A DNA stretch of 64,000 nt from the NCBI GenBank assembly GCA_019096065.1, contig JAGUCH010000002.1, positions 6,398,501-6,462,500 on the forward strand, given 5' to 3'. This document shows positions 11,205 through 63,662 of the stretch, one piece after another. Position 1 is the first letter of the stretch, and the number at the start of each line of letters is the position of its first letter. The position numbers and the translations under genes were made by a program. The stretch comes from Paracyclopina nana. Its lineage: Eukaryota > Arthropoda > Copepoda > Cyclopoida > Cyclopettidae. The notes below the pieces were generated by a model. It saw only the letters and a program-made list of their open reading frames with translations. It was not told where the DNA came from and searched no databases.

Positions 11205-11205
11205 A

Positions 11206-20120: not shown

Positions 20121-20129
20121 AAGGAACGC

Positions 20130-20247: not shown

Positions 20248-20459
20248 AAATTATTATAACACAGTAAAAAATAAGGTAAGAATATAGAGATTTATATTTG
20301 AAACAACATTTTTAGCAATGAAAAATTTTTTTTTAAAAATTACATTTCCCATCACGGCTCTCGATCAAGTTAACTGAAAGGTGGAACATATGTTTTTTAT
20401 GCATACCAGCCATGACCGCAGTTAAAATAACACAAAACTGAGTCGCTAGCATGATTTTC

Positions 20460-29813: not shown

Positions 29814-31187
29814 AGTAATAAAAGTCTTATGATATAAGCGTTTCATTACCTACTTATATGGGACCAAAAAGTTGGCTAAGTTTTAAAAAAACATGTTTAA
29901 ATGACAACGACTGTGTTATAACTAACGGCAACTACCAACAAAAACTGCTGAAATGGCAGCGTCAGTCATATTTTAAATTTGCTTGCTTTGACAATGAGAT
30001 GATGGAATTATGAAAAGTCATATTTGCAATGAACATGGAAAGGATGAATATGTTAGGACAAGTATCACAAAATGCAATACTCATGTCCTCCTTTGTCCAG
30101 ATGCAGTTAGTGAGATGGTAATCGAATAACTGATCTATGTTACATTTCCAATCTTTGCAAAACTAAACTGTAATCTTAGCGTAGTTGCCGCAAAAATAAA
30201 GACATAAGTATCTAATAACATTATTGTGTCATAAGCTGCTTATGAAAGTATGATTTTGATGATGATTTTTTTGAAAAAAGGGAGAAAAAGAAGTAGCCAA
30301 TATTTCCTTACATCGCCAAATGCAGTTCTATTACCTATTCAAGCCTAAGTAGTGCACATATAACATATAAGTACAAAATGTTAATGACGCTTATAAATCT
30401 CTAATTCTTACATGCAGGTGTTATACGAGAAGCAAATTTCAATAAGAAGTAATTGAAAGTGAAATTTCTCTCTACTAGCAGTCTACCACAACTAAATTGA
30501 AACAAAAAAAACAATTAAAAGTGCTTGATTAATGTAAATTCAAAAAACCGTTCCTTTGACGAAATTTATATGACACAATAAGGGTCTTATAAGGGAGCAG
30601 ATAAGTCAAAAAATGTCGATTTACTTAAATTTTTCATTAAACATATGTCTATTATTTTTACATATATTGACTCTCCAATGACAAAGCAAGCATTTAAACC
30701 TATTTTTTCATTAAAATTAACAAGTTTGTTTTTCATCAGGGATTTATACCATAGTTATCATGGAGTTTTCTAGTGGGGTTAGTGTCACTGAAAGCTTTCT
30801 GGAAATGTTGTGGACCATTTGGAGGGTCTACCCTAGGGGGTTCACTGTGCCCAAGGGTTTTGCCGGTGGACCTCTAGGAGTGGAGATATGGGCCCCCAAA
30901 GTTTTGTGAAATTCTTACTTTGTAAAACCTTGGACCTCCCTGGTGCCCATATTAAACAACATTTAGGAACTCGTTTTTTGTGCAATGTTAGACCCCCTTA
31001 GGGTCTCTCTAGAAATGGCATAAAAGTTGGCATCATGAATGACCACTGTGCTCGAAGGGGCAAATCATGATTTTTTGGGGGTAACTTTGGAGCAAAATTG
31101 AGGAACCTTCCCCCGGATGAATTTATTTTACTTTTTGCACAGTCAGCCAAAGGTTAGTGCTTTCAAATAAAAGAAAAAAAAAAAAAA
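29814..31187. other. Outer non-coding flank of the right arm and terminal poly-A
   Basis: Mirror of 11206..12579. A copy of the intron-type motif follows the transposase stop (GTCTTATGATATAAGCGTTT, then CTACTTATATGGGAC at about 29823-29866), outside any intron. Terminal poly-A at 31174-31187. No gene. Confidence 0.5.
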
Positions 31188-41418: not shown

Positions 41419-42009
41419 ATGCTCAATTACTATCAAAAAGGGCCAATTTTAATGAAATTCTGTTCTGAAACTGAACACATCTTACTACACTGGGCCTGGC
41501 GAAAAAACCGCAATACCGCATGCGTATCACTTGCTCACAAAGGCGCACTATGGGCGAAGTTGAACGGCATCGACATTGATCACCGCAAGCTTAAAACCGT
41601 GCACGTGGCGAAATTCACCGCGATGGAAATCCTCGCGAACGTCAGTAAATCTTGCTATCAGGAAGTTGGCTGCATGATAGTTTCTGGTCTCACGATGAGA
41701 ATGTGCCAAGCATCCACCGATCATTGGAATCTGTTTTTGCTAGCGCATAATTTCGATCCTCGTGACCCTACCATCGATAACTTCTGCGATTGGTGCACCT
41801 ACTTGGAGACAAATTTGGCGAAAGACGTGTTGGCAAAAGCGCAGCAGGATGCATCGCCTCTAAAGAATGTTTTTGCACCATCTAATGGCGGTACCAAGGT
41901 ATTGTCAACGGTGACTCAGGAGAATGCCACCGAATGTCAAGATTCTCCACAACCTGAAATGGAACTGCCTGGAGACAGCGATGAAGACGATGTCCCAGTT
42001 TATGCCGTG
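41419..42009 (+). pseudogene. BEL/Pao retrotransposon gag, 5' part, split by the Polinton
   Basis: Open frame encoding the capsid-like part of a BEL/Pao gag (KFTAMEILANVSKSCYQEVG, DHWNLFLLAHNFDPRDPTID). It is interrupted at 42009 by the Polinton; the frame runs 54 nt into the TIR before a stop. The other half resumes in the same frame at 63663 after one copy of the GCCGTG duplication. The ATG at 41419 is the first in frame but may not be the true start. Confidence 0.72.
42004..42009 (+). repeat. Polinton target-site duplication, left
   Basis: GCCGTG directly before the AG of the element; repeated at 63657..63662. Confidence 0.95.
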
Positions 42010-42336
42010 AGTAGTTTGCATTTCCAACAATTCTGGCAATTTGGTTTGCTTAATAGACCTTGAAAGACTCATAGTAGTAAACCCTGATAAACATCTGGTA
42101 ACGCTGCAACTTCTCATAATTGAGGTGATTTGTGTCCCAGTGAAGTCTTTTTTAATTCATTGCTCTCTGTCATAGTAGTGTGAAAGCAAATGGATGAGAC
42201 ACAATGAAAGTGAAACCACCATCACTGATACAGAAATAATTCTGATTTTGGCTCTTTTGATGAACATGTTGATGATTTGAAAGTGTACAATTTTCATGTC
42301 TGGTACCTCCCTGAATTGACCAACACAATGAAAGTC
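42010..42336 (+). repeat. Left terminal inverted repeat of the Polinton
   Basis: About 327 bp, roughly 88-90% identical to the reverse complement of 63327..63656. Similarity is highest over the outer 180 bp. Confidence 0.9.
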
Positions 42337-42414
42337 AAAATGTTTTATTGTTCTACATAATAATAGAGTTCATGTTCTAACATATTCCTGATGCATTCAA
42401 AATGGGACTTCTCC

Positions 42415-44459: not shown

Positions 44460-45800
44460 GCGAAAGTTTCAGCTCAGATTTTGCGTAAAAGGTGGCTCCT
44501 CCCCTTTTTGAGAGTTGGATTTTTTCCCGCCAATTTTTGAAAATCCAAAGTTGATTCAGAGGAGCTTTTTGCCAAAAATGAACTTGTCAAACTTTACAAG
44601 CTTATATCTCGGGAACGAAAAGACCCACGTTTTTGCAATTTACATTTCTAGAAAGCTCGTGCAAAAATCTATTTGCATGCAAAATTTCAAGTTTCTAATG
44701 CGAAAAGTTTTCGAGTTATTCAAATTCAAAGTTGTAATTTTTTGGGCATAAAAATCTGAGCTGGCTTTGCGCTCCAAAAAAGGGGAGGAGCTACTTTTTC
44801 GCAAAATCTGAGCTGAAACTTTCGCGCCATTATTCAAATTCAAAGTTGTAATTTTTGGGCATAAAAATCTGAGCTGGCTTTGCGCTCCAAAAAAAAAAAA
44901 GGGGAGGAGCTACTTTTCGCAAAATCGGAGCAGAATTTTCCCACCAAGATTTCAAATGCAAAGATGATCTAGTTTTCGCGCTCAAAAAAAGGAGGAGCTA
45001 CTTTTTCGCAAAATCAGAGCAGAATTTTCCCGCCAAGATTTCAAATGCAAAGATGATCTAGTTTTCGCGCTCAAAAAAGGGAGGAGCTACTTTTTCGCAA
45101 TCTATTTTGGTGCAAAATTTCCAGTTTCTAATCCAAAACGTTTTCGAGTTATTCAAATTCAAAAGTGGAGTAATTTTGGACATAGATATTTGAGCTCGCT
45201 CCAAAAAAGGGGTGGAGCTTGGAGTTAGATTTTTACCCGCCAATTTTTGAAAATCCAAAGTTGATAGAGTGGAGCTTTTTGCCGAAAATGAACTTGTCAA
45301 ACTTTACGAGCTCATATCTTGGGAATAAAAAGACCTACATTTTTGCAATTTACATTTCTAGAAAGCTCGTGCAAAAATCTATTTGCATGCAAAATTTCAA
45401 GTTGCTAATGCGAAACGTTTTCGTTTTATTCAAATTCATAGTTGAGTAATTTTGGACATAAAAATCTGAGATGGCTTCGCGCTCCAAAAAAAGGGGTGGA
45501 GCTTGGAGTTGGATTTTTTCCCGCCAATTTTTGAAAATCCAAAGTTGATAGAGTGGAGCTTTTTGCCAAAAGTGAACTTGTCAAACTTTACAAGCTCTTA
45601 TCTCGGGAACGAAAAGACCTACATTTTTGCAATTTGTATTTCTAGAAAGCTCATGTTAACATCTATTTGCATGCAAAATTTCAAGTTGCTAATGCGAAGC
45701 GTTTTCGAGTTATTCAAATTCCAAGTTTTCATTTTTTGGGCATAAAAATCTGAGCAGGCTTCGCGCTCCAAAAAAGGGGCGGAGCTATCGTTTCCGCAAA
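44460..45800 (+). repeat. Cluster of about 280-bp direct repeats
   Basis: Three fuller copies start near 44515, 45222 and 45505. Each has CCCGCCAATTTTTGAAAATC, then GAACTTGTCAAACTTTA, CATTTCTAGAAAGCTCGTGC and ATGCAAAATTTCAAGTT. Between them lie shorter pieces with GGGGAGGAGCTACTTTTTCG; one such piece is repeated back to back (about 44927-45095). Confidence 0.8.
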
Positions 45801-46499
45801 ATCTTAATTTACGGAGACTTCTAGCTCAGTTGCTTAAATGACTTACTAATAAAAAGTGTTCAGCTTGGTCTCTAGATTCCAAAACTGTAAATAGTTCCAA
45901 AATCGGAGCATTTTTCGAAGTTTGACATTGAATAGACGGATGAAACGCAGCTTTATGTACTACGTAGTACATAGAGCGTTTTGTTAAGAAGTAGCGGGTG
46001 TAAAAGTGGAGATATCAATTTTGCTATGAAGTAAAAGTAGTTTCTGCTAAGTCTCAGGATTCCATAGATGTAAACAGTTTTAAAATCGGACAACTACGAG
46101 CGGAGATAGCGCTGAGCGCTCAGCAGTACATAACTTCGTAAATGAAAATGCGCTGAGAGACTTTGAGTACTAATAAAAGTGATAGAGATTGTCAAGACGA
46201 ATTCAGGAGTGCAAAAAGAAGTGAGCTGAGACGCTCCGTTGCTGATATATCGCTCCCCAAAGTTTACTACTTAAAACTTTGCATGGAAATATAATTTGCT
46301 AAAATGTAGGACTTTTCATTCCCCAGATGTTAGCTTGTGAAGCTTGTCAAGATCATTTTCCCCCAAAGCTTCAATCCAAACATTTTTGCATTGCTTTTTC
46401 AAAAATGTGCAGTGAGAAATCTCATTTAAAAAGTGACATTCGAAAAATCTTGCAAACTATCTGAAAACATGATAGTTAAGAATTAGAAATTTTGAGGTC

Positions 46500-46625
46500 A
46501 AAAACAATTTTTAGTATGAGCTTTCTAGAAACATCAGTTTTCAACAATGTACAATTTTTCGTTCCCAAGATATCAGCTCTTAAAGTTTGACAAGTTCATT
46601 TTTTGGCAAAAAGCTACATTATTTG
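46500..46625 (-). repeat. Inverted copy of the 280-bp repeat
   Basis: TTTTTCGTTCCCAAGATATC and AAGTTTGACAAGTTCATTTT are the reverse complement of the core of the repeats at 44.5-45.8 kb. Confidence 0.7.
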
Positions 46626-46641
46626 GCATGAAGGGAAATTA

Positions 46642-46863
46642 GGGCCTGTTCACCTGCTTATTATGGCCGTTATTTTGGCAAAATATTGGAGAGAAATACT
46701 GAGAAACTGAGAATTTTTATATTGGTGTAGGATGGCTTTTGGTACCAATATACCGATTCCGAAGTCAAAATCTGAAAAATGATTTTAAAAATACCACATA
46801 TTTGCAAATTTCATCATAATATCGCGCGTTATTTTGCTGATAATAATGCAGGTGAACAGGGCC
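46642..46863. mobile_element. Tourist-like MITE, copy 1 (222 bp)
   Basis: Inverted ends GGGCCTGTTCACCTGC / GCAGGTGAACAGGGCC. Same family as the element 54 bp downstream. End sequence resembles PIF/Harbinger (Tourist) MITEs. Confidence 0.75.
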
Positions 46864-46916
46864 TAATGTCAAAATAAATTTTGATTTTTAGTTGAAAAGA
46901 AGCTCTGAATAATTTA

Positions 46917-47138
46917 GGGCCTGTTCACCTGCTTATTATAGCCGTTATTTTGGCAAAATATTGGAGAGAAATACTGAGAAACTGAGAATTTTATGTTTGG
47001 TGTAGGATGGCTTTTGGTACCAATAGATCAATTCAGAGGTCAAAATCTCAAAAATGATTTTACAAATACCGGAAATTTGCATATATCAGCATAATATCGC
47101 GCGTTATTTGGCTAATAATATTGCAGGTGAACAGGTCC
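46917..47138. mobile_element. Tourist-like MITE, copy 2 (222 bp)
   Basis: Same length and ends as copy 1 (GGGCCTGTTC ... GAACAGGTCC), flanked by TTA at 46914-46916 and 47139-47141, the 3-bp duplication expected for PIF/Harbinger elements. Confidence 0.8.
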
Positions 47139-47181
47139 TTAATCCAGAACTGTGCTTTTAGCAATCCCCATCAGCTAAAAG

Positions 47182-49422: not shown

Positions 49423-51378
49423 TCATGTAAACACAGTGGCACATGTGTCAATATAACTTTGATCAGGCCCTAGCTTTTTAAAGATGAAGGTAGCGACAAT
49501 GTCTCTTGTCATGATGGGTTCACCAGAACCATCTTTGATGGTCAAATCTAGGCTAGAGACTTGATTGGTTGCAATTGGATAATAGTCAACATGATGGAAT
49601 TCAGTTGAAAAAAATCCATTGCTTGCATCAACATGTGGTAGTAGCTTGATGATCTTGTTGACGACAACATTTGTTTCAATGGTGAATGGTTCCTTGATGG
49701 GTAATTGAGGCAAATATGGAAATGTAAAGTCTTGCTTGACTTGAATCTTGCCTTCTCCATGCCCACCAAATATGCCAAGGACAGACTTTGACAGCTTTAG
49801 GTCAAAGGACTTGCCCTGCCTGGAGGACAACACAATAGGAAAGGTGGAAGACACTGACAATAATCCATTTGTTTCAAATCGCAATGTGTTTAAAAGCTCA
49901 TGAATGGATGAGATCTTTGTGGGAAATGCAAAGGTGATGAGTGATGATGGTGTACCCAAGACACCTGGAGTCATGACAGCCTCAACTTGAGCATCATCAG
50001 ATGAAAGGTTAAATATGAGTGGAAAGCTCAGTGAAGAAAGACCCACAATCCAATTCGACCTTGCATTGGTCATGGGCAAAGGATAATCTAGCCTCTGCTC
50101 TGTACCTTGCCGAGTCGAAAAAATTCTCGTCAACTCACAGATTGGCATGGTCAAGCGTCTAATGTACACCTTCAAAATGATGGGAGGAGCACTGACACAA
50201 AGTTGAAGAGGGTTATGATGAAGGTCTACTAAAGCAAAGTGCAACTTTGCTACATCTCTAGGTACCAAGCTGGAAAAATTGAGATGCTTGACCACCAAAT
50301 GGAGCACGCTGTTTTTGGCTCTTGTCTCTGGCAAGTTGTGGCCTAAATGCAAGTGAGCAAGCCATGGTTGCTCAGTCTCAAAGCATTGTATCAAGCAATC
50401 GCTGACTTTTGTTGATGGAAATGAGTCATCCATGCTGAAATTACCATCGAGACGACAGAGACCATTCAACTTTTTCAAACCTTGAGAGGAGAATGTAAAG
50501 TACACTTGATCATTCACAACTATCCGCTGTTTGAAGGCTGCATGCTTCAGCACTTGTTCCTTTTTCCCAAACATGATTTTGGCCATTGAAACATGTAACC
50601 ATACATTTGTGTTTGGTGCTAGGCCAATGGACAGTTGATCAAACAATGCATCATAAAAAAATTGGATTGAATTTGAGTCAAACAATTTGAGTTGTTTAAA
50701 AAAGTCAAACTGAGTCAAACTGTTGTGAGGCGCAAGATGAATACATTCAAAGCCTAGCGAGAAGGCTTTGGAGGGTGTTGTCATTTCCACTGCAATGAGT
50801 GGCACATCAGCTTGGTGGATTGGAAAATGAGCATTGACAAACGCATTGGGAATCCATGCTTCAGCAATGGCAATTTCATGATGACCGACAAGAAAGGGTT
50901 CAAGTACATGCTCAAGACCAGACGTGTATTGGATCAACATTGCCAAGCCAAACTTTTCTTGCGCTTGTATTCTTGATACTCTAGAATATTGCAGCAGTAG
51001 GCTAAAAGAAAAAAATGACTCTAATGATAGTGGTAGAGTTGATTTGAGCTTACGATGATCAATTGCATCATCTCCATGACCTTGACACGTGCGTACAGGT
51101 TTAAAGTGAGGATAAGTTTTTATTGATGTGATGGTAGCACAGGACACAGCAGGACTCTCTGCGGACGAGGTCTCCGCCGAGGTCTCCGCCTCCTGCTCTG
51201 AGATCTCCGCAGCCTGCACCGCAGGCTCGGGGATCTGCACCGCGGGCTCGGGGGCCTGCATCGCGGGCTCGGGGGCCTGCACCGCGGGCTCGGGGGCCTG
51301 CACCGCGGGCTCGGGGGCCTGCACTCGTGCCTGCTCAGTGGGCTGGGTTTGGGATCTTGGATCAATGTCTTGACTCAA
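49423..51378 (-). CDS. Penton-like minor capsid protein with N-terminal repeat
   Basis: An open frame of about 650 codons. The C-terminal block (DYYPIATNQVSSLDLTIKDG, then MTRDIVATFIF) resembles the single-jelly-roll penton proteins of Polintons and adenovirus-like elements. The N-terminus carries six near-identical heptads (VQAPEPA) encoded by a GC-rich 21-nt tandem repeat (51210-51330), unlike the AT-rich remainder. The first in-frame ATG is at codon 40 (51261); the frame begins without ATG, so an upstream exon or the internal ATG must supply the start. A donor at 51471 (minus strand) in an open upstream frame is one candidate, but the phase fits only with a weak acceptor. Confidence 0.6.
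   Translation of the reverse strand: MSQDIDPRSQTQPTEQARVQAPEPAVQAPEPAVQAPEPAMQAPEPAVQIPEPAVQAAEISEQEAETSAETSSAESPAVSCATITSIKTYPHFKPVRTCQGHGDDAIDHRKLKSTLPLSLESFFSFSLLLQYSRVSRIQAQEKFGLAMLIQYTSGLEHVLEPFLVGHHEIAIAEAWIPNAFVNAHFPIHQADVPLIAVEMTTPSKAFSLGFECIHLAPHNSLTQFDFFKQLKLFDSNSIQFFYDALFDQLSIGLAPNTNVWLHVSMAKIMFGKKEQVLKHAAFKQRIVVNDQVYFTFSSQGLKKLNGLCRLDGNFSMDDSFPSTKVSDCLIQCFETEQPWLAHLHLGHNLPETRAKNSVLHLVVKHLNFSSLVPRDVAKLHFALVDLHHNPLQLCVSAPPIILKVYIRRLTMPICELTRIFSTRQGTEQRLDYPLPMTNARSNWIVGLSSLSFPLIFNLSSDDAQVEAVMTPGVLGTPSSLITFAFPTKISSIHELLNTLRFETNGLLSVSSTFPIVLSSRQGKSFDLKLSKSVLGIFGGHGEGKIQVKQDFTFPYLPQLPIKEPFTIETNVVVNKIIKLLPHVDASNGFFSTEFHHVDYYPIATNQVSSLDLTIKDGSGEPIMTRDIVATFIFKKLGPDQSYIDTCATVFT
51212..51335 (-). 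repeat. GC-rich 21-nt tandem repeat within the penton-like gene
   Basis: Plus-strand unit GGGCTCGGGGGCCTGCACCG, repeated five to six times with few changes, encodes the VQAPEPA heptad. The GC content is far above the rest of the element. Confidence 0.85.
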
Positions 51379-51568: not shown

Positions 51569-54500
51569 ATGGAATTCCTCATCAACTTGAATCATCCTCG
51601 CAGTCATCATGTGCAAGATTTGAATGTGCCAAATGATGCCTCCTATTATTTTGCGGTTGCCTCAAAAGTTTGCGCAGAACACAGACTACGGCCCCTTCGC
51701 CGTTGGTTGCACCATGAAGCACATGCTCAAGATGGCAATTTTGAAGCTCTTGAGGCATGGACAGCTCAACATGGGCCAGTCCACAGCTTTGCAGTCAACT
51801 TGTTTCATTTATCAGGAGACAATGAACCTATTGTCTATTTGATGGATGTGGCCAACCCACAGCATGCATTTCGTGAAAAGTGTGCAAACATTTTGAGGGT
51901 TGTGACCCACACTGGAGACTATCGCTACTTGCTCATCAAGAATACCTATTTGTTTTTGAAACGACATGTGCATCAACGTAGACATGGCCATTCTCTTATT
52001 TGTGAGCGATGTCTCAAAGTTTTTTACTCTCAACCCAAGTACCGGCATCACTGCGCTCAATTTGCTTGTTTTCCATCCACAAATCAAATTGAAACCATGC
52101 CTGCCCTAACAGAGGATGGAGCAAAACCTACCTTGAAGTTCAACAAGTTTTCAGCCCATGTGGCTTATCCAGTTTCAATCTATTTTGATTTTGAGACCAT
52201 GTCTCATCCTTTGCAACCTGATTGCAATGTGTGTTTGGGTCGTTGTCGTTGTGCAACGTCCTACACTCGCAATGTTAGAGAGCATGAAGCCATCAGTGTT
52301 GTTTTCATTATTGTGAATGCTGGGGGAAAAGTGTTGCATGAAGAAACAATCTTCACACAAGATGCTGGAAAGGCCTTCATTGAAAGGCTACTTGATCTGG
52401 AAGCAGACTTGCTGCGGATTGTCAAAACTATTGTGCCTTTGCGAATGACTCAAGAAAATGAGCAAGCCTTTCAAGAGGCCACCACCTGCCACTTGTGTCG
52501 TGCACCTGTAGAGCCAGGTGAAGGTGTCAGGGATCACAATCATTTTGATGGAACCTTTTTGGGGAAGGTAATGTAAAGAAGCAACGCTCAACAATCTATC
52601 AAAGTAATCCTTGCCCTAGGCTCATGCTCGATGCAACTTGCTCAAAATGGATTCCAAGAGCAAAATCCCAGTCATTTCCTTCAATGGGGCCAACTATGAT
52701 TACTATTTTCTGTACAAGGCTTTGGGAGACAACCCCAGGATCAAGTATGCAACTGGACTGGCCAAGAACACTGAGGGGCTTCGAGGGTTTGATTTTAATT
52801 GGTAAGATGTAGTACTTGACATTTTTGGATGTTGTGATACATGATTTTTTTTTTTCCAACAAGGTTCACCTTCATTGATGCCTATGCTCATCTCAACTCT
52901 TCTTTGGCTGAAGTTGGCAAGACATTGCACAAAAGTGGTCATGACTATACACTTTTAAAGCAGTCTAAGGCTTGTCAAAATGAGCATGGTGTCTTTGAAC
53001 CTCAGCGAGTGGAACTGTTGACTCGCAAATCAATTTTTCCATACGATAAATTGGTTGATTTAAACTATTTAGATAGGAACACTTTTCCACCCTATGAGGA
53101 TTTTTACTCCATTTTGACCCAGTCCATCCCAATTACCCATGAGGAACATGCACAAGGAGAAGCCTTGTTTCACAGGTTTCAACTTGCCAACCTCAAAGAA
53201 TACTTGTTGTTGTACAACTTGGGTAAGCTGTGACGCATGCATGCAATACATTTTCTAGCTGTTTTTTTAGTTGATGTCTACATCATGGCAGAGGCCTGTC
53301 AGCGTTATGACAAGATGATGGTGGCAAATTTTGGTCTGCACCCTTTTAAATTTATTAGTCTCCCTGGTTTTGGATTCAATTCATTTTTGAAATCAACTGG
53401 CGTTTCCATTGAGCTCCTCACAGATCTAAGCATGTATCGCATGTTTGAAGAAGGTTTACGAGGAGGTCTTTGTTTCACTGGGATGCGCTATCAGGAGGTA
53501 ACCCCTGGTGTGGACTGTCTCAAACTCTTTGATTTCAACAACCTTTATGGGTAAGACTTGTTTGAACTTGAGCAGTGGTTGATTGAATCATTTTATTTTC
53601 AGACAAGCTCAGTGCTTTCCTTTACCCCTGCGAGACTTTAGCTTTTTGAGTCAAGAGGACATCAACAATTTTGATCCCATGGCTCCTGATGCTCTTGTCA
53701 ATCAAGGGTATGGCTATGTGTGTGAAGTGGACTTGGAATATCCTTTGCACCTTCATCGACGTGATCGTCATATGCCTCTCATCACAGAAAAATACACACC
53801 CACATTTGATGATCTTTCAGACTATCAAAAAGTGGCTTGGACAATGCTGGGGGAGGGATCATGCTACAAGCCATCTCCAAAGCTCACGGCCACATTTAAG
53901 CCCAAATCAATCTACATTTGCCATTTGGCACTGTTGCAGTATTACATCAGTCGAGGCATCATTCTGAAAAAAATACATCGCATTGTTCGTTTTTATCAAG
54001 AAGATTACATTAGAGTGTTCATTGAACTCTGCACCATCATGAGGGCAAATGCTGGATCTCCCTTTGAGGAGAAGCAGATGAAATTGACGTCCAATGCAAA
54101 TTATGGTGAGCAAACAATCTTGATTTGTATTTTTTTTAAGTTTCACATTTCACATTTCACAATTCAGGAAAGCTCCTTGAATGTGTACGTAACTACATCA
54201 GGTTACTGATTACTTTATCTGATCGGCAACGGGCTCGCTACGCAAGTGATGCTTTCTTGATGGCAACAAAGATCATTGGTGACAATGCCGCCTTTCTCTT
54301 TTTCAAGCCCAAGAAGGTTCATCTCAACAAACCCATCTTTAGCGGTTTCTCTGTGCTTGAGTTTAGCAAGTTGATCATGCTCAAGGGCTTTTACCACACA
54401 TTGGCACCCATTCTCAAGGATCATCAAATTCTTACATCTGACACAGACTCATTTTTGATTTATTTCAAAAGTCAAGATGAGTCAGTTGAGTTGGCGGCAC

Positions 54501-55021
54501 TAAGAAATCATGTTGACTTTTCCAATTACCCTCCCAATCATCCGCTCTATGATGCAAGCAAAAGTCGACAATTAGGATTGGTCAAGGATGAAAGTGGAGG
54601 TGTGGCCACCATCAGAGCTGCAGTTTGTCTTCGTAGCAAAGTATATGCCTTGTCGTGTGAGCCAACTGCCTATGCCACCAATGGTGATGGGTTCACAACT
54701 AAAAAATGTAAAGGTGTTGGCAAACATGCCATGAAGCAATTGAGTTTTGAAGACTACAAGGAAAGTCTGCTAAACTTTTCAAAGGTCTACAGCAGCTTTC
54801 ATGTTATACGAAAAAAAGACTTTAGTGTGACAACAGCTAATGTGCGCAAAGTAGCTTTGGCTGCCATGGACGATAAAAGACATTTGCTACCTTGTGGCAT
54901 CCATACCTTGCCCTATGGATCTTGTGAAATTGCAGTCTTTGAAGAAAAGTGTCCAGATTGTGAAGGCATACCATTAAATGTTCAACAAACCATGTTTCAA
55001 GACTTTATTGACAGTCTCTAA
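51569..55021 (+). CDS. Protein-primed family B DNA polymerase (Polinton pPolB), six exons
   Basis: Exons 51569-52567, 52620-52801, 52864-53222, 53271-53550, 53603-54105, 54168-55021; introns of 48-62 nt with GT-AG borders and fitting phases; 1,058 aa. Order of motifs: a zinc finger (CERCLKVF...HHC, about 145-165); exonuclease I motif FDFET (206-210); an endonuclease-VII-like C..C...VRDHNHFDG...AHARCNL segment (307-340), usual in Polinton polymerases; polymerase motif A FDFNNLYG (about 600-607); motif B KLTSNANYGK (about 768-776); motif C TSDTDS (about 864-869). All catalytic aspartates are present. Role: replication of the element from a terminal protein primer. The usual N-terminal domain is missing and may be supplied by the gene at 48508. 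Confidence 0.93.
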
Positions 55022-55050: not shown

Positions 55051-56214
55051 ATGTATCATCTTCGCCAACATCTTCTTGAGCAAGAGTTGTCTTGTGCAGT
55101 GTGCCTTGATCTTTTGATTGATCCAGTGAGGTAACTATGCTTTTGAATTTTGGCTGGCAAGAGTCATCATGCTTTGTTTTTTAGGACCAATTGTTCACAC
55201 TCATTTTGCAACTTTTGTCTCACAAACTGGACTCGCACTGCTGCTCTAATTGGAAGGCATAAAGTTGTGTGTCCCATCTGCCGCGAACGTCTTCGTTGTG
55301 TGTCTAGTGATGTGGTTCTGGCAAACATGATCCGCATCTTATTTCCGGCTCGGATTGCAGACTTGCAACTTACCTTTGACGAGCGTGGCTTTGTGCTGCC
55401 TTACAAATTTGTGAGATGGGCAACGCGCAAAGTCTTGGGGCGTCCAGAGGACCCTGATCCAACTTGGTTGGCTCAAGATTTGTGGATGCAGCAAGCACCT
55501 GTACAGGAACCAGACGTGGTTCAAGACCCTGTTCAAGTTGTACCAAATGTAGTTGAGACTCAATTGTTGGCCAATACACCCATTGAGCAACACGAGGTAG
55601 CAGTAGTGCTGCAAGAGGGTGATGAGCTGTTGCTATTGGAAGAGGATCAATTCTGGATTGATGCTCCCTTGGTGTTGGATGCTCCAGTCCCAATTGCCCA
55701 ATCACCTTTGGCATTTGTGGAGCCTGGAAATGCTCTGGAAGACGACCTAGAGGTCAACAATGTTGTTGCTGAAGAGACTGCAAGAGCTGAAGAAGTAGAA
55801 GAGGCAGTTGCACACATCTTGATGCAAGAGCCTCAACTTGAGGATGCAATACCAGTAGAGGAAGAAGAGGTGGTTGACCCACCTCCACAACCTCTTGTGC
55901 TGGCTCCAGCACCTCCACTTTCAGCAATGTCTGGACCCTCTGGTTCTGCTGCAGCATTGGAACCTTCTGACCCATTTACTCAGCAAGGACTCCAATTTCA
56001 TTTGGAGGCCATGCGACATGTTCAGCATGCTCAACAGCATGCTCAACACCATGCTCAACAGTTCCAATCCAATCCCATGATGACTGCAGCATGGCAAACC
56101 GTGCCTCTCTTGAGCAATCTGCCCTATCCCCCACAGCCTCCTTATGGTCAATGCTATCGCTGTGGTTCTATGTGGCATTGGTCAACCACCTGTCCCCATC
56201 GCCTCCATTTTTAA
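55051..56214 (+). CDS. RING-finger protein with C-terminal CCHC knuckle (Polinton)
   Basis: Two exons, 55051-55130 and 55185-56214 (54-nt intron within the RING; AG|GTAACT ... TTTTTTAG|G), 369 aa. The N-terminus has a C3HC4 RING: CAVC, then CSHSFCNFC, then CPIC, which suggests E3 ubiquitin ligase activity. A conserved-looking helical segment follows (MIRILFPARIADLQL). The middle is acidic and Pro/Val-rich, then a QHAQHHAQQ stretch, and a C-terminal knuckle CYRCGSMWHWSTTC. Starts 29 bp after the pPolB stop on the same strand. RING proteins are common in large DNA viruses; whether this was captured from the host is unknown. Confidence 0.8.
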
Positions 56215-56278: not shown

Positions 56279-57137
56279 ATGATCTCAAGACTCACCATGT
56301 ATTCATGTTCCTTTGAAACGCCTTGTAGCATTCTCATTGCTGGACCTAGTAAAGTAACAATTTTTGAAAATAAAAAAAAATGTACATTTGTAAATAGTTT
56401 TCATGTTGTTCAGTCTGGGAAAACTACATTTGTGTACAATGCGCTCAAAGAGAAGCATCGTATTTTTTCACCAGCACCAACACGGGTTTTTTTGGTGTAC
56501 AAGGAAAACCAAGAAATGTATAATGATATGCGACGTGAAGGGTTGATTGACGATTCCATCGCACGCATGATTAGTATGGAGGAGCTGAAAGCGTTGGCAA
56601 GAGCTGAAAAGAATAGGGGTGGTTCACTCCTCATCATATTTGATGATCAACTATTGGCAACTCTCAAGTCTATTGAATTCATCGAAGCAGTAAGTCATTT
56701 CATTCATTTGCATGTCCTTTGCATGATGCACTCTTTCCATTTTAGGTCACTGTTTGTGTTCACCATCTCAAGCTTTCGCTCATTTTTGTCAGTCAATCTA
56801 TTTTTTTTCAAAGTCCTGTCTACAAGCAAATCTCACTACAAAGCCAGGTGTTTGTCCTGACAAAAAATCCAAGGTCAACCCGTGATATGATCAGCATTGC
56901 AAGTCAGTTTCGTCCCTACCATACAAGATTTGTCATTGATGCTTACAAAGACGCCACAAGTCATAGCTATGGTTACCTTGTCATTGATTTTCAGGTAATG
57001 CAATTGCATTTGATTTTCCTTTGCATGCATTTTTTGTTTTTCAGCAACAATGCCCAGAACATTTACGCCTTCGGACAAACATGTTTAGCTTTGAACGCCC
57101 ACTCATTGCCTACCTTGAAAAAAATGCACGCACTTAA
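56279..57137 (+). CDS. FtsK/HerA-type genome-packaging ATPase (A32-like), four exons
   Basis: Exons 56279-56353, 56414-56689, 56746-56994, 57045-57137; 230 aa, the usual size for Polinton ATPases. The first intron splits the Walker A loop: GPSK is at the end of exon 1 and SGKTTF at the start of exon 2. Walker B is LLIIFDD. A conserved LIFVSQSIF segment and the C-terminal LVTKNPRS-like region (VFVLTKNPRSTRDM) follow. Role: pumping the element's DNA into capsids. Introns are 50-60 nt. Confidence 0.88.
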
Positions 57138-57142
57138 GGTAC

Positions 57143-57505
57143 ATGATACAGTTTTTAGAACAAATGTCTCGTAAAAAATCACTTTGCATTATCAAGGCAC
57201 TACTTCGTTGTAAAGAAGGAGCCATTGACATTATCCAAAACCTTGACGCATGTGGTGTCAATGCTCTTTGCGAAGCCATCTTTAACGTTTGCTACAGCAC
57301 AGCTGTAGCTTTTGATTCAAGAAGCAAGTCAAGACTAAGAAAGCTTGTTCATAGTCAACATAAGCTGATAAAAAAAATTTGCAATAAATCTGTCGCTGTT
57401 GAAAAAAGAAAACGTTTGTTGTGCCAAATCTCAAGTCTGATTGAAATCTTTAGGCTCGCTTGGGTAGGTCTTTCATGCTTTCATGAGGGCAAGGGACACG
57501 CATAG
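57143..57505 (+). CDS. Small basic Polinton protein (PX/core-like)
   Basis: 120 aa from ATG 57143; ATG 57167 is an alternative. Pattern LCEAIFNVCYSTA, then a Lys-rich helix (SKSRLRKLVHSQHKLIKKIC) and KRKRLLCQ matches, from memory, a small protein found in many Polintons and adintoviruses (L.E...N......H...L..L........K...L.Q). Often thought to be virion core-associated, but its function is not established. It begins 5 bp after the ATPase stop and overlaps the next gene by 23 nt. Confidence 0.55.
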   Translation: MIQFLEQMSRKKSLCIIKALLRCKEGAIDIIQNLDACGVNALCEAIFNVCYSTAVAFDSRSKSRLRKLVHSQHKLIKKICNKSVAVEKRKRLLCQISSLIEIFRLAWVGLSCFHEGKGHA

Positions 57506-58652
57506 CATTGAAAAACTTGCTCTCATTCCATTTGCACTCTATACAAGACTGTTGGCCCTGTTGGATGAAGACGAAGTCAATTTATTGTATGATTTAAATC
57601 CACACCCCACAACTAACCTTGGGCAAGACAACATGATGAATGAAATTGCTGATGTTGTGCCACCATCCACTCCACACATTCTAGCACCAATCACATTGCA
57701 GCCAAACATCCTGCCATCTGTCAATGACAGTCAAATGACTCGAGAGTCTTCAGTAGCTCCTCCTCCCTCCCTCACTCCTGAGCTACCAGCGTCTACCAAT
57801 GAGAGTCAAATGACTCTAGAGGCTTCAGAGGTCACTGTTGATCTACCAGAGATCTCCCAGACTTTAGATGACCCAAGACATACGTCAACACCACTTCCAG
57901 CCGAGATCACAAGCCATGAACCCTCACAGACTCCTACCCTCCCACCAAAGCGTCCAAGATTTGACTGTCCTTATTGTGCATCATCCTACAAAACGCAATC
58001 TTTGCTTACCCACCACGTGGAGAGAGTCCATGAGAATACAACCACACAAGCAACAAATACAACAAATGTGCATGAGAATGCGACTGCGGCTGTAGCTGCA
58101 CAACCACAAGTTGAATCTGAAATTAGCTTTGAGAGTATTTCTGATGTTGATCCCTACAATTTCATGACTAAACCTAGGACTAAAAGAGTTTGGCGTTGTG
58201 ATTTATGCGAATCGACCTTTGAGAGTGAACCAAAACTGTATCGCCATTGTAAGGCTCATCACAGCCTCGATATTCGTGTGGACGCAACTAACCAACCTCA
58301 AAGACCAAAGACACCAGTGCCGTCTGCACCAGCAAAATTGGTTTGCATTTATTGCAACCAAGGATGCAAGACTGAGCGAGCTAGACAAAGGCACATGATG
58401 AATGTTCATGGTTTGGATGAAAAGGATCCTGAATGGAACCAATCAAAAAACAAGCGTAAACGAGTTGCCCAAGGTAAGCGTAATTCTGGTAAACGAAGAG
58501 GAAAAAGCATTGGACCCCCAGCAAAAGTTGAGCCACAGAAGCGTAAAATGAATCAAACAGATGAAGTTCCCACACAAGATTCAATGCCAAGAAAACGAGG
58601 AAGACCAAAGAAAAATAATTCTTTTAAACTATGGCCTGTTCAAAAAAAGTAA
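57483..58652 (+). CDS. C2H2 zinc-finger / AT-hook protein (Polinton)
   Basis: 389 aa. The N-terminus (EKLALIPFALYTRLLALLDE) resembles the short conserved opening of a Polinton virion protein; a Ser/Thr/Pro-rich linker follows. Three C2H2 fingers are seen: CPYCASSYKTQSLLTHHVER..H, CDLCESTFESEPKLYRHCKA..H and CIYCNQGCKTERARQRHMMN..H. The tail is very basic with an AT-hook (RKRGRPKK). Predicted DNA-binding and nuclear. It could organise the genome or regulate late genes; this is inference. I checked whether it could be spliced to the previous gene and the phases do not fit. Confidence 0.65.
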   Translation: MRARDTHSIEKLALIPFALYTRLLALLDEDEVNLLYDLNPHPTTNLGQDNMMNEIADVVPPSTPHILAPITLQPNILPSVNDSQMTRESSVAPPPSLTPELPASTNESQMTLEASEVTVDLPEISQTLDDPRHTSTPLPAEITSHEPSQTPTLPPKRPRFDCPYCASSYKTQSLLTHHVERVHENTTTQATNTTNVHENATAAVAAQPQVESEISFESISDVDPYNFMTKPRTKRVWRCDLCESTFESEPKLYRHCKAHHSLDIRVDATNQPQRPKTPVPSAPAKLVCIYCNQGCKTERARQRHMMNVHGLDEKDPEWNQSKNKRKRVAQGKRNSGKRRGKSIGPPAKVEPQKRKMNQTDEVPTQDSMPRKRGRPKKNNSFKLWPVQKK

Positions 58653-58691: not shown

Positions 58692-60086
58692 TTAATGAAT
58701 CATAAAGTTGACAGTTCTGTCCTTGTCGATGACAAGTTCTGAGGCATGTAGTGAGTAGACAATGACTTCCAGTGGAGTTGTTGGAGAGCTTGCAAATCCA
58801 AGGTGGAGCTCCAAGGCTCCAGTTTTGATGGGATGACGGTGGTAGAGGCAGCACTTTGACAAGTTGAAAGCATACAATGAATGACCCTTGCGAAACTGTT
58901 GGTATGTGAATTCTTTAGTGTTTAGGTTGTTGTCGAGGTTGAGCGTTTGCACAAGGTCCAAATACTCTCTCAATGTGCTCCCTCCGCTTTCAAATCCTGG
59001 TTGGTAGGTGCGTGAAGGATACATGGCTGAATTGATTGAGAAGTAAATTGAATTGAGATTGCAATGAGGGAAGTGGAAAGGATTCTTTGCACGACTTGTT
59101 AGCTGGTCTTGGTGCATGAGACCAACCAGTACGAGGTTGGGCAATGTTCCTTGAGCCAAGTTGATTGTTGCTCCTGAGACACCAATAGGAACAGTATGTG
59201 ATGAAACTTTAATTTGTGGCAAATGGTAGCGTAAGGGTGCTTTTAGAATGAGGCTAGCATGGTGATTTGCCACTGTTTCAGCTACAGATACATGAGTCAT
59301 CTCCAATTTTAGAGATTTGAGCCTGATGGCAAATGTGTCTGAACTTGTGCCAAGCAATGAAAAGTTGATGTCATTTCTCATCAGGTCTAAACGAATGGTG
59401 ACTCCGGGAATCATCAAGTAGTTCATGTTGAATAAATCAGCATTGATGGGTATGACAAACTCGTGTGCCTTGTTATTGCAAAACTGGGCTTTGCGTTTGG
59501 CAAATCCAGATGTTGTATCTCCAGCTACCACTTTGTTGACTGTATCATCTTGATCATCAGGTCCAGCTAAATAATGTTGGGTGGTTTTCAAATAGGTGGA
59601 CTTTTGGGTGTTGTTAAATGAAAAGACATTTTCCAAGTAGGCTTTGATGGGTCCCAAAAAGTTGGCACTTGACACAACTTCGCAATTGTTGATGCTAATG
59701 CTTGTCAACTTGAAAAGGGAAGCAGGTACCATAGATATGACTGAAATGTCATCTGTTGCAGATATGCTGACATCATTTCCATTTGAAACTTTTACTAGCT
59801 GCCAGCTTCCCACAAGCCTTGCAGATTGTAGGTCAATGTAGGATGTTCCCTGGGGAGTCACTAAAAATGAGTACACTCTCCCTGCAGTATCAACAGTACC
59901 ATCAAAGGGAGAGAGGGTGGAGTACTGGACCCTATTTGAATTTGTGATGGATGCATCTATTTTTTCAGGCTTGAAGAGGTCTAGCCTCGAAGAAAAGAGA
60001 ACATTCTCATCAGAGTTCAATGAGCCAAGACCCACCCTTCTTGGTAAATTCTTTGAATCCATTTGATCAGTCATCATAACAAGCAT
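58692..60086 (-). CDS. Major capsid protein (double jelly-roll, Polinton hexon-like)
   Basis: 464 aa, single exon; ATGs at 60086, 60077 and 60062 are possible starts. The hallmark of Polinton/adintovirus hexons, LMIPGVTIRLDLMRND, is in the middle. It is followed by the second jelly-roll landmarks (LVLVGLMHQDQLTSRAKNPF, HFPHCNLNSIYFSIN, MYPSRTYQPGFESG). The size is typical. It would assemble the icosahedral shell with the penton-like protein at 49423-51378. The gene is on the opposite strand to most of the element, convergent with the zinc-finger gene and divergent from the TBP-like gene. Confidence 0.8.
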   Translation of the reverse strand: MLVMMTDQMDSKNLPRRVGLGSLNSDENVLFSSRLDLFKPEKIDASITNSNRVQYSTLSPFDGTVDTAGRVYSFLVTPQGTSYIDLQSARLVGSWQLVKVSNGNDVSISATDDISVISMVPASLFKLTSISINNCEVVSSANFLGPIKAYLENVFSFNNTQKSTYLKTTQHYLAGPDDQDDTVNKVVAGDTTSGFAKRKAQFCNNKAHEFVIPINADLFNMNYLMIPGVTIRLDLMRNDINFSLLGTSSDTFAIRLKSLKLEMTHVSVAETVANHHASLILKAPLRYHLPQIKVSSHTVPIGVSGATINLAQGTLPNLVLVGLMHQDQLTSRAKNPFHFPHCNLNSIYFSINSAMYPSRTYQPGFESGGSTLREYLDLVQTLNLDNNLNTKEFTYQQFRKGHSLYAFNLSKCCLYHRHPIKTGALELHLGFASSPTTPLEVIVYSLHASELVIDKDRTVNFMIH

Positions 60087-60115: not shown

Positions 60116-60730
60116 ATGTTTCAAGAGCCTTTGTGTGTGGTCAACATCAAAGGTCATGTCACTTGCAGTGCAATCTCAATGTCTGATTTGTTGATGCGGT
60201 GTCAAGACAAGGGTTTTGCAGTTCGACACTACAATAACTTTGTGCTGATATTTGTGAGTGGAGACAAATTGAGACTCAGTGTTTTCAAGTTGGGCAAGCA
60301 TGCAAGTCATCATGTCAATCTCACAGGAATAAAAAATCATGGTAGCATCCAATATGGAATTGACACTTTGCAAGCATTGGTTGGAGATGGAAACTTGTCT
60401 GATTTTGTGATTGATAATCTTTCAGTCACCACCACTCTCCCTCAAATTGATCAGTCTATTTTTCATCGCCTCATTCACTCCTCCCACAACCATATTTGGA
60501 TAAGACAGAATCGCGAGTCCTATTCTGGGGTGTGCATTAAACTCCAGAGCCATGGCTCCGTTGGAGGACCCACTGGGTTGTTTTATTTCCGTAATAAAAA
60601 GCTTGTGATTCTAGGCTGCAAGACTGTTCCACAATGTCAACACTTTGTCAATCAAATCAGAATGGCAATTCTGGATGTTTGCATCCGAGAACCAAGGACA
60701 GTCGCAATGGAATGTACACCAACTGTTTAG
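60116..60730 (+). CDS. TATA-binding-protein-like protein encoded by the Polinton
   Basis: 204 aa. Two sequence repeats of about 90 residues follow the TBP saddle pattern. Repeat 1 (about 5-95) has ...FVLIFVSG... and ends HVNLTGIKNHGSIQYGIDTL, parallel to the V-x-L-T-G-A-K block of TBP followed by its helix. Repeat 2 (about 96-190) opens DFVIDNLSVTTTLPQID (compare D-F-x-I-Q-N-x-V) and contains TGLFYFRNKKLVILGCK, parallel to L-I-F-x-S-G-K-x-V-L-T-G-A-K. It is far too diverged to be a recent host copy. It overlaps the next gene, which is TFIIB-like, supporting a paired role in promoter recognition. Identity is from pattern reading; a structure prediction would settle it. Confidence 0.68.
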   Translation: MFQEPLCVVNIKGHVTCSAISMSDLLMRCQDKGFAVRHYNNFVLIFVSGDKLRLSVFKLGKHASHHVNLTGIKNHGSIQYGIDTLQALVGDGNLSDFVIDNLSVTTTLPQIDQSIFHRLIHSSHNHIWIRQNRESYSGVCIKLQSHGSVGGPTGLFYFRNKKLVILGCKTVPQCQHFVNQIRMAILDVCIREPRTVAMECTPTV

Positions 60731-61812
60731 ACTGTCACAAAGTGTTGGACTTTTTTGAAGTTGGTCAGCGCTTTCGCAAGTCTGCCCAATCTCTCAAATC
60801 TGCTTCTGGGTGTCCGCATTTCAATACAGTTGAAAATGTTGATGGCTTTGCTACTGTTTGTACGGATTGTGGCGAAGAATTGGGCAGTCTTGCATTCCAA
60901 CCTTATCAACTCAAAGATGATGAAGAGAGGGAAGAGCACGCATTTGCATCAGCATTGTATGAGGACAACATGGATGCTGCAGAGCTGTGCAATCGCATTG
61001 GGCTCCCTGAAAGGTTTGGTGTGCATGCAAATGAACTGTTCAATTCTACTTGCAAAGATCATACGGTCAAGCCTTGCAAAGATCTCTTTGCTGCTTGTTT
61101 TATGGAATCGGTGAAGCGTGAGGGAGTGCCTCTCACCTTGAGAGAGATGACTGGAGCCTCTGGATGCATGCAACAAAGAATGGAGAAGAAAACCAAACAG
61201 CTCTTTCCAGAGTCTGTCGATATTGAGCCTCGACAGTTGGCCTTTCGCTTTGCCATGAAGCTTGGGATCAAGCGTCAAGATGCCATCAAGATTGAGAAAC
61301 GTTTGGCTTACATGAGAAGTGATCATTCCTTTTCACCTGCCACAATTGTGGCTTGTCATATTGGAGACTTTGTTCGCAAGGAGATTGCAACTAAGAAGCA
61401 CTCCAAACTAACACCTTTTCAAAGAAAGCAATGCATTGTTCAGGTGAAATCGAAATCACAGCTTCAAGCTCAAATTGCGTTGGCCCAATTGAGAGATGAT
61501 GATTACTACAGTCACTTAAAGAGCATTCGCAAGAACAAAGATGTTCAAGATATTGCAGGCATCAGCAAAGAAGCAATCAATCGCTTCAACTTGAAAATGT
61601 TCAAAACTTCTGGGTCCATGATGCGATCTGGTCTTGTGCACACCAATCAAGACTCACATGTCACTACCTTGGCCGGGGCAGTGCCTTCAGAAGCACAGGG
61701 TGCTTCAGAAGCCACAGCCTTTCGTGAAGCTACCATTAAAACTTTTAAGAGGAAAAAAAGAAGTGTTTCTCCATTGTTGACCTCACACACAAAAGCTAAT
61801 GTCTCTGGATAA
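60634..61812 (+). CDS. TFIIB-like transcription initiation factor encoded by the Polinton
   Basis: 392 aa. It has two zinc ribbons with identical spacing, C15-x-H17-x13-C31-x2-C34 and C60-x-H62-x13-C76-x2-C79. The second, CPHFNTVENVDGFATVCTDCG, is a typical TFIIB/archaeal TFB ribbon. A helical core follows: DLFAACFMESVKREGVPLTL matches the A-C-x-x-x-x-R-x-x-G-V-P-R-T signature of cyclin repeat 1. FSPATIVACHIGDFVRKEI and VQDIAGISKEAINRF match the R-S-P-x-S-I-A-A and D-I-A-G-V-x-x-x-T-I-R blocks of repeat 2, with an insert of about 60 residues between them. The tail is basic. Its first 97 nt overlap the TBP-like gene and its last 14 nt overlap the integrase gene. Confidence 0.78.
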   Translation: MSTLCQSNQNGNSGCLHPRTKDSRNGMYTNCLDCHKVLDFFEVGQRFRKSAQSLKSASGCPHFNTVENVDGFATVCTDCGEELGSLAFQPYQLKDDEEREEHAFASALYEDNMDAAELCNRIGLPERFGVHANELFNSTCKDHTVKPCKDLFAACFMESVKREGVPLTLREMTGASGCMQQRMEKKTKQLFPESVDIEPRQLAFRFAMKLGIKRQDAIKIEKRLAYMRSDHSFSPATIVACHIGDFVRKEIATKKHSKLTPFQRKQCIVQVKSKSQLQAQIALAQLRDDDYYSHLKSIRKNKDVQDIAGISKEAINRFNLKMFKTSGSMMRSGLVHTNQDSHVTTLAGAVPSEAQGASEATAFREATIKTFKRKKRSVSPLLTSHTKANVSG

Positions 61813-62749
61813 GCTTTACCTAAACAACAAAAGCCCCATTGGCTATGGTGGTGTAGAGCAAATCTACAACTACTTGGACAAGGCATTGTCACGCAGAAAA
61901 ATTGAAAAACTCCTCCAAAAATATGATTCTTTTGCTAAATTTCGCGAGTCTAGACGCGCAAAGCAACATATTCCCATTTATGTCTATCATCCACGTGCAA
62001 CCTTAGCCCTAGACCTGTTTTACTTTCATCGTCAAGAAGAAACCAATGATGGGTATGCTTTCATCATGTCTGTCATTGACTGCTTCACCAAAAAAGCTTG
62101 GTGTGTTCCCCTCCAAAAAAAGAGTGCTGATGTTGTATTGGCAGCATTCACCAACTTGCATCAAACTCACCTTGGTGACTTTAAAGTTCTTACTTGTGAC
62201 AAGGGTTTAGAGTTTGTAAATATGAAAATGAAGACCTATCTAGCAAAGCATGGTATTGAAATGTATCACCCAACAAGATTGGGGAAGGCAGCAATGATTG
62301 AACGCTTTCAAAAGACCATTCAAGTAAAGATTTCCAAGTACTTGCTGGAAAATCAAACCTCAAAGTTTGTGGATGTTCTTGACCAACTTACTGAGTTGTA
62401 CAACAACACCAAGCATCGCTCTTTGCAATGCACTCCCAATGAAGTAGAAGCAAGTGCAAAGAAACAAACACAAGTGCGAGGACTCAATGAAGTGAAATAT
62501 AAAAAAGTGAAATCCAAGAAACCAAAATTTAAAATTGGACAAACTGTTTTGATTTCAAAACCAACCTCTAGGTTTCAGAGAGCCTACCATGAACAATTTG
62601 CCAATGAAGTATTTCGTATTGTAGCCATTGACAAAAAGTTTCCCATTCCATTGTATACCATAAGTAGCTTAGATGGAAGTTCAATGATTGATGGCAAGTT
62701 TTTGCACTCTGAATTTTCTCCCATCTCTATTTCTGAACTCTTTGTATAA
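61799..62749 (+). CDS. Polinton DDE integrase (retroviral-type)
   Basis: 316 aa, single exon. The catalytic triad is visible: D72 (LALDLFYF), D134 (LTCDKGLEF) and E168 (AAMIERFQKT), with 33 residues between the last two, close to the D,D-35-E of retroviral integrases. The C-terminal part (KFKIGQTVLISK ... VFRIVAIDK) has the SH3-like fold seen in Polinton integrases. No N-terminal HHCC finger is obvious; GYGGVEQIYNYL corresponds to the usual region before the core. It integrates the excised/replicated DNA, making the 6-bp duplication seen here. The ATG lies inside the end of the TFIIB-like gene. Confidence 0.92.
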   Translation: MSLDKLYLNNKSPIGYGGVEQIYNYLDKALSRRKIEKLLQKYDSFAKFRESRRAKQHIPIYVYHPRATLALDLFYFHRQEETNDGYAFIMSVIDCFTKKAWCVPLQKKSADVVLAAFTNLHQTHLGDFKVLTCDKGLEFVNMKMKTYLAKHGIEMYHPTRLGKAAMIERFQKTIQVKISKYLLENQTSKFVDVLDQLTELYNNTKHRSLQCTPNEVEASAKKQTQVRGLNEVKYKKVKSKKPKFKIGQTVLISKPTSRFQRAYHEQFANEVFRIVAIDKKFPIPLYTISSLDGSSMIDGKFLHSEFSPISISELFV

Positions 62750-63042: not shown

Positions 63043-63326
63043 CTTGAGAAAATATTTGCTACAATCATATTAGTTTTTCTCCTTAAGAATGAACCCAATT
63101 AATCTCAATGTATTTCCAAGTTGAGCTCGAGTCAACTGATAAAAATGTGCTAGTTATGGTGAATTTGTCAGTCATTGAAAAGTCTTCTTGAATTCAAGAA
63201 TTCCTCTTCAATATTGTGATTTTCCAGGAAAAGTTTTCTTGACCAGATGTTATGAATTGACATCATGCTGAGAATGCAGTTGGTGTCAAATATTTTTGAC
63301 AAATCAGGCTAAGAAAATTGTACTAT

Positions 63327-63656
63327 GACTTTTCATTGTGTTGACCAAAATAGGGAGGTACCAGGTGTGAAAATTGTACACTTTCAAATCGCCAACATGT
63401 TAATCAAAAGAGCCAAAATCAGAATTATTTCTGTATCAGTCACAGTGGCTTGTCTTCTCATTGTGTCTCATCCATTTGCTTTCCCACTACTATGACAGAG
63501 AGCAATGTATTATAAAAGACTTCACTGGGACACAAATCACCTCAATTATGTGAGGTTGCAGCGTTACCAGATGTTTCATCAGGGTTTACTACTATGAGCC
63601 CTTCAAGGTCTATTAAGCAAAGCAAATTGCCAGAATTGTTGGAAATGCAAACTACT
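63327..63656 (-). repeat. Right terminal inverted repeat of the Polinton
   Basis: Ends GCAAACTACT at 63656. Small indels and about 10% substitutions relative to the left TIR show that the two ends have diverged, more than expected for a very fresh insertion. Between 63043 and this repeat I see only AT-rich non-coding sequence. Confidence 0.9.
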
Positions 63657-63662
63657 GCCGTG
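63657..63662 (+). repeat. Polinton target-site duplication, right
   Basis: GCCGTG, identical to 42004..42009. Confidence 0.95.

Follow-up and report, generated by a model that had tools for sequence, protein, structure and literature searches.

A Polinton in the genome of the copepod Paracyclopina nana carries, next to its integrase gene, adjacent genes for two proteins that our profile searches support as homologues of the TATA-binding protein (TBP) and of TFIIB. The best explanation for this pair, and one that we hold to be rather probable, is an element-encoded promoter-recognition module that works with host RNA polymerase II (Pol II). With Polinton/Maverick elements (including adintoviruses), the element shares terminal inverted repeats with AG...CT ends, a 6-bp target duplication, an RVE integrase, a family-B polymerase and a length of about 20 kb; it differs from them by the addition of the TBP-TFIIB pair.

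The window, that is, the whole stretch of 64,000 nucleotides that was analyzed, lies on contig C2 of the genome searched (92 Mb, 10 contigs) and contains a complete Polinton of 21,647 bp (21.6 kb) at positions 42010-63656. The left terminal inverted repeat (42010-42337, 328 bp) starts with AGTAGTTTGCATTTCC and shows a 91.5% match with the right repeat (63326-63656, 331 bp), and the ends of the element read AGTAGT...ACTACT. Comparison of the flanks revealed a 6-bp target-site duplication, GCCGTG, at 42004-42009 on the left and 63657-63662 on the right. Alignments of the window element with copies on contigs C8 and C9 stop at the same terminal points; these copies have terminal inverted repeats of 332 bp (92.8% alike) and 389 bp (99.0% alike) and the target duplications AGTAGT and TATACA, respectively, so that a 6-bp duplication is present in all three copies examined. 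The Polinton setting of the TBP/TFIIB pair is supported by these hallmarks. Tandem repeats of 89-284 bp occupy positions 44716-47139 of the element, where alignments to the other two copies are fragmented. Elsewhere, the window holds a palindrome at 11259-31134, whose arms (11259-17816/24577-31134, 17815-19586/22806-24577 and 19579-20665/21726-22812) are all 100% complementary, with a small inverted repeat beside it at 9795-11205. Two ORFs of the palindrome had no Pfam match above cut-off, and its ORFs had no tblastn match to the Polinton pieces compared; it is either a recent inverted duplication or an assembly artefact.

The integrase (316 aa; 61799-62749, plus strand) belongs to the RVE family (Pfam rve, E 1e-7), and its family profile matched foamy-virus integrase in the PDB at E 3e-10. 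A family-B DNA polymerase (51569-55021, plus strand), whose gene is split into several exons or pieces, was recognized by way of relatives in the same genome: the piece at 54257-55018 is 33-36% identical to open frames of 1093-1105 aa from the lineages called B and C below, and these frames match Pfam DNA_pol_B_2 (PF03175) at up to E 1e-20. The window pieces by themselves gave no polymerase match in Pfam or PHROGs; DFNNLYG, KLTSNANYG and DTDS, read by eye, are presumably polymerase motifs. The sequence of the polymerase gene contains a 52-nt intron-like interruption (53551-53602, plus strand; GTAAGA...TTTTCAG). A second interruption, of 60 nt (56354-56413, plus strand; GTAACA...TTCAG), divides what we take to be a Walker A motif, read by eye as GPSK and SGKTT on its two sides, in a putative packaging ATPase (56279-57174, plus strand) that is assigned by this motif and had no match above cut-off in the Pfam scan. 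Both interruptions would be removed by splicing. Lineages B and C have the polymerase as a single uninterrupted frame of about 1100 aa, so that introns are not a general trait of the group. The element further encodes a C2H2 zinc-finger protein (389 aa; 57483-58652, plus strand; Pfam E 6e-8) and a 354-aa protein (55150-56214) in which Pfam recognized a RING finger (E 2e-5) and, weakly and below the cut-off, a CCHC knuckle; this protein is perhaps a ubiquitin ligase. Two genes lie on the minus strand. One encodes a 651-aa protein (49423-51378) with nothing above cut-off in Pfam, which we take to be a putative minor capsid or penton protein. The other encodes a conserved candidate major capsid protein (464 aa; 58692-60086), so labeled on our assumption from its position, whose family profile had no match in the PDB. 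A Pfam scan of 18 of the 23 element ORFs of at least 100 aa matched neither a protease nor an RNA polymerase subunit. In PHROGs, the TBP-like protein had two weak matches to families without a name, and seven further proteins or pieces from the window had no match.

The TBP-like gene (60116-60730, plus strand, 204 aa) and the TFIIB-like gene (60634-61812, plus strand, 392 aa) overlap by 97 nt, and the integrase ORF starts at 61799, overlapping the TFIIB-like gene by 14 nt; this arrangement of reading frames is as originally predicted. By itself, the window TBP-like protein reached 15.1 of the 22.9 bits of the Pfam TBP cut-off (E 0.021) and stayed far under the NCBIfam TBP cut-off (E 0.0063), and a sequence search of the PDB gave no match. 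Five relatives from the same genome (B, C, D, E1 and E3) exceed the Pfam TBP cut-off, and the family profile matched 35 PDB sequences at E<=0.01 (best 1e-15), all of them TBPs or TBP-containing fusions. The host TBP exon scored 40.3 bits with the element TBP profile, the best scored shuffle reaching 6.9 in a chance control of 2000 shuffles (HMMER reported 1376 and 1529 for the two element profiles). The predicted structure of the window protein is a two-repeat TBP saddle, with giant-virus TBPs among its best viral structure matches. Family profile, predicted fold and the alignment with host TBP support the 204-aa protein as a TBP homologue. A large protein database contained one TBP relative from outside this genome, which also matches PDB TBPs and suggests that this type of TBP occurs beyond this genome.

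In the alignment with host TBP, the asparagine of repeat 1 (N10 in the window protein) is kept in all eight non-host rows and that of repeat 2 (N101) in seven, lineage D having Ser, and the four intercalating positions (window Y39, F57, Y136 and F158) are Phe or Tyr in all eight. Given the roles that we assume for this minor-groove Asn pair and for the intercalating residues from TBP-TATA structures, their conservation makes it likely that minor-groove DNA binding is retained. The stirrup of repeat 1 carries an insertion with a conserved H-x-N-x-T; this is presumably the side where cellular TBP meets TFIIA, and the contacts made there have probably changed. The motifs by which two TBP repeats had been proposed, IF-x-SG and LTG-x-K, fared differently: LTGIK (69-73) aligns with CTGAK, but IFVSG (45-49) falls outside the LIFSSGK of TBP, whose counterpart is LSVFKLGK (with F57).

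For the TFIIB-like protein, too, the family profile carries the identification. Alone, the window protein matched PF00382 at E 0.081, weakly and in repeat 1 only, and human TFIIB at E 0.004, and the C9 copy alone matched no Pfam family at E<=0.1. The lineage B protein matches PF00382 in two stretches, and the family profile covers both cyclin repeats of human TFIIB at E 4e-25. The claim that both repeats are present therefore stands for the family, but the second repeat of the window protein is weak by itself; profile and alignment place the cyclin-repeat region at about residues 113-300 (60970-61533, plus strand). The host TFIIB exon scored 68.8 bits with the element TFIIB profile, the best scored shuffle 8.2. 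A single-sequence structure model of the TFIIB-like protein was poor (pLDDT 36.6), and a search of the large protein database found no relative of it. The protein is closer to TFIIB than to Brf1 (Pol III), with far higher TFIIB scores: the family profile matched a Brf1-TBP fusion in the PDB at E 0.0024 vs 4e-25 for TFIIB, and the presumed host Brf1, a 726-aa two-repeat frame, scored 23.0 bits vs 68.8 for the host TFIIB exon. The profile matches support the 392-aa protein as a TFIIB homologue.

Both of the predicted C-x-H-x13-C-x2-C stretches are present in the TFIIB-like protein, and one of them is matched outside lineage A. The second (C60, H62, C76 and C79; residues 60-79; 60811-60870, plus strand) aligns with the ribbon of the TFIIB-like proteins in lineages D and E; the Pfam Zn_Ribbon_TF matches of D and E1 (E 1e-4) stay under the cut-off of that family, and lineages B and C have a shorter, C-rich form. 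The first (C15, H17, C31 and C34; residues 15-34; 60676-60735, plus strand) occurs in lineage A only and lies largely in the overlap with the TBP-like gene. Because it is absent from the other lineages and the overlapping frames are without clear constraint (see below), this first ribbon may depend on a start codon other than the one used.

The same arrangement recurs across the genome. Besides two host-type TBP genes, we found at least 14 TBP-like loci (counts from the genome search are lower bounds), which fall into five lineages: A, that of the window, with three loci, B with one, C with three, D with two and E with five. Occurrence of the adjacent pair in other elements is thus supported within this genome. 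At each of the 14, the TBP-like gene is accompanied by a relative of the candidate capsid gene in divergent orientation and, within a few kb, by an integrase gene in its own orientation; TFIIB-like sequence lies between TBP and integrase. The TFIIB-like frame is intact in ten loci (A 3, B 1, C 3, D 1, E 2) and broken in four, two of which (E2 and E4) are known only from the ribbon-end frame. TBP identity between lineage A and lineages B-E is 22-35%, partly over partial alignments. The host TBP and TFIIB genes contain introns. One further TFIIB match, at C5:4868570, was left uncounted (E 4e-4, with one stop and without a neighboring TBP-like locus); this locus had no match to the profiles at E<=1. 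The second host-type TBP gene (C1:12294725-12295313, Pfam E 7e-25), which has no integrase or capsid match nearby and no match to the element TBP profile at E<=1, is possibly a TBP-related factor.

Of the 30 integrase matches obtained from the genome, 14 have a TBP-like gene as neighbor. The remaining 16 comprise six C-type copies that start inside the TFIIB gene, two second pieces of listed copies, four matches near family-F capsid matches and four others or fragments. The six C-type copies form three inverted pairs about 16.5 kb apart (C3:1719051/1735805, C7:4631898/4648364 and C9:2262750/2279227), with one common breakpoint inside the TFIIB gene; they retain the integrase, have no TBP match nearby and seem to be a palindromic derivative that spread. 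The two lineage-D copies are also an inverted pair, at C9:811337 (plus) and C9:830102 (minus), and are not a simple assembly duplicate, since their TBP-like genes differ (dS 0.18). By eye, the C-terminal part of the lineage-D TFIIB-like protein (L022, 1691-2869) resembles a small lineage-E protein, MPIGG... (L060, 2198-2680), which is encoded between TFIIB and integrase, and is possibly a fusion. A second Polinton family, F (C9:6276800-6281000 and related loci), has a capsid candidate, an ATPase-like frame (by eye) and an integrase in the same direction. Neither the TBP nor the TFIIB profile matched in the 4.2 kb of family F examined, and there was no Pfam TBP match near its loci; the pair therefore seems to mark one Polinton clade.

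Comparison of the window element with its C9 copy gave dN/dS values of 0.175 for the TBP-like gene (0.112 outside the overlap), 0.172 for the TFIIB-like gene (0.154 outside the overlap) and 0.062 for the integrase, which shows selection on these genes in this copy pair. For the TBP-like gene, dN/dS was 0.316 between D1 and the open part of D2, and 0.054 between E1 and E3, where dS is saturated. In the 97-nt overlap of window and C9 copy, subtraction leaves six nonsynonymous and one synonymous difference in the TBP frame and five and two in the TFIIB frame; this suggests little constraint, with neither frame clearly held. The TBP and TFIIB trees both join lineages B and C (97/97 and 99/98), and the integrase tree separates these two once family F, with its very long branch, is included (62/58). 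The remaining supports range from 22 to 100, and the three trees, small and long-branched as they are, show no strongly supported conflict. The branch between the element TBPs and host TBP is very long.

How might such a pair be used? We propose that the TBP homologue would bind and bend DNA at element promoters and that the TFIIB homologue would bind the element TBP and bridge to host Pol II. The pair could thereby let the element pick its own start sites, foremost in the interval that separates the candidate capsid gene from the divergent TBP-TFIIB-integrase group, where the module would feed back on itself and on capsid expression. In lineage A, 29 bp separate the two start codons there, so that a promoter would have to overlap coding sequence unless translation really begins further downstream in the two frames. 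The original prediction had left the choice between Pol II and Pol III open; the TFIIB scores far above Brf1 and the two GT-AG intron-like interruptions favor Pol II, and recruitment of that polymerase by the pair stays the proposed step. Given the same interruptions and no RNA polymerase subunit recognized in the element ORFs scanned, transcription most likely takes place in the nucleus on host Pol II. A shared promoter motif upstream of the element genes had also been expected and did not emerge: no k-mer common to 17 upstream regions exceeded what shuffling produces, and among 27 such regions, each of 120 bp, two contain TATA[AT]A. These results and the short interval between the start codons speak against the proposal. 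Private initiation at element promoters, with late capsid genes expressed independently of host TBP, is plausible and fits the divergent capsid-TBP arrangement in all 14 loci.

Alternatively, the pair might act on the host, competing for TFIIA, TFIIB partners or Pol II, or occupying host TATA boxes, and so shut down or reprogram host transcription. The kept DNA-contact positions would allow host TATA boxes to be bound, and the H-x-N-x-T insertion sits in the repeat-1 stirrup, presumably the TFIIA side. A decoy, however, needs no matched TFIIB with a zinc ribbon, and the position of the pair beside the integrase and divergent from the capsid candidate at 14 of 14 loci also speaks against this reading, which we judge rather unlikely. 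It is unlikely, too, that only one partner is element-specific, the TFIIB-like protein serving with host TBP or the TBP-like protein with host TFIIB, as an auxiliary to the ordinary machinery: the TFIIB-like cyclin core is still similar to host TFIIB (68.8 bits), but both genes have been retained together in five lineages, with similar constraint in the copy pair measured.

TFIIIB marks integration sites for the yeast Ty3 element, and the pair could in the same manner work with the neighboring integrase, marking promoters as integration sites. The 14-nt overlap of the TFIIB-like and integrase genes in the window, and the few kb that separate TBP-like gene and integrase in 14 of 14 loci, would suit such a partnership. 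We nevertheless regard it as quite improbable, since the protein is TFIIB-like and not Brf-like, ARAGORN detected no tRNA gene, either in the window or in the flank pieces of the other two copies, the three target duplications differ, and the 4.2 kb of family F that were examined contain an integrase but not the pair. Finally, host TBP and TFIIB are clear homologues of the pair and the TFIIB frame is broken in 4 of 14 loci, as might be seen if captured cellular genes were carried passively; dN/dS values well below 1, the persistence of both genes in five diverged lineages and the very long branch to host TBP make this most improbable. We therefore retain element-directed promoter recognition with host Pol II as the best explanation.

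Viral TBP/TFIIB pairs offer several points of comparison. Chrysochromulina parva virus CpV-BQ1 encodes TBP and TFIIB, which were proposed to redirect host RNA polymerase II (PMC12085832), and both proteins are described in megavirus chilensis (PMC11464507). As far as these accounts extend, giant viruses share virus-encoded TBP plus TFIIB with the window element and differ in their far larger genomes and, in megavirus, an RNA polymerase of their own, whereas here the two genes are neighbors in an integrating element of 21.6 kb. Poxvirus VITF-3 is described as an atypical TBP/TFIIB pair whose loading requires the viral polymerase and whose intercalating residues are isoleucines (PMC12917281). 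On that description it is likewise a two-protein TBP/TFIIB unit encoded by a virus, but the element proteins are aromatic at the intercalating positions and no viral polymerase was recognized in the element. Nimaviruses are represented by the TBP wsv303 of an endogenized large DNA virus of crustaceans (PMC10871703, in part); they share a TBP homologue with the element but are not Polintons, and the section of the account seen has no TFIIB partner. In mirusviruses, the available passages report a TATA-binding protein in most genomes and interpret introns, together with the lack of transcription genes, as pointing to reproduction in the nucleus (PMC12768974, PMC10132985). These are, in contrast, large protist viruses unrelated to Polintons, and the same passages mention no TFIIB.

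In IMG/VR (proteins and alignments), a narrow pattern method that gives weak evidence of absence yielded no confirmed relatives of TFIIB, integrase, TBP or the capsid candidate, and the literature searched, with most subscription papers outside its scope, contained no report of TBP or TFIIB in a Polinton; its passages on these proteins dealt with giant viruses, poxviruses, nimaviruses or mirusviruses, or with marker genes listed for giant viruses. The window element is a Polinton with an initiation module that we otherwise know only from larger viruses. To our knowledge, Polintons have been taken to use the host transcription machinery unaided, and on the broader reading given below, this would be the smallest virus-like genome we know of with its own TBP and TFIIB.

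The broader reading, that of a Polinton clade whose self-encoded and self-regulated promoter recognition makes host RNA polymerase II element-specific and is co-inherited with the integrase across lineages whose TBPs have diverged to 22-35% identity with that of the window, is in our estimation evenly balanced. If it is true, a virus-like transposon in the nucleus would be able to define its own promoter code on a borrowed host polymerase. The adjacent TBP-TFIIB-integrase genes provide a marker for finding such elements in other genomes, and the pair itself offers a minimal TBP/TFIIB model for testing the evolution of orthogonal initiation and of private preinitiation complexes. It may also represent a possible step toward the TBP/TFIIB sets of giant viruses and poxviruses.
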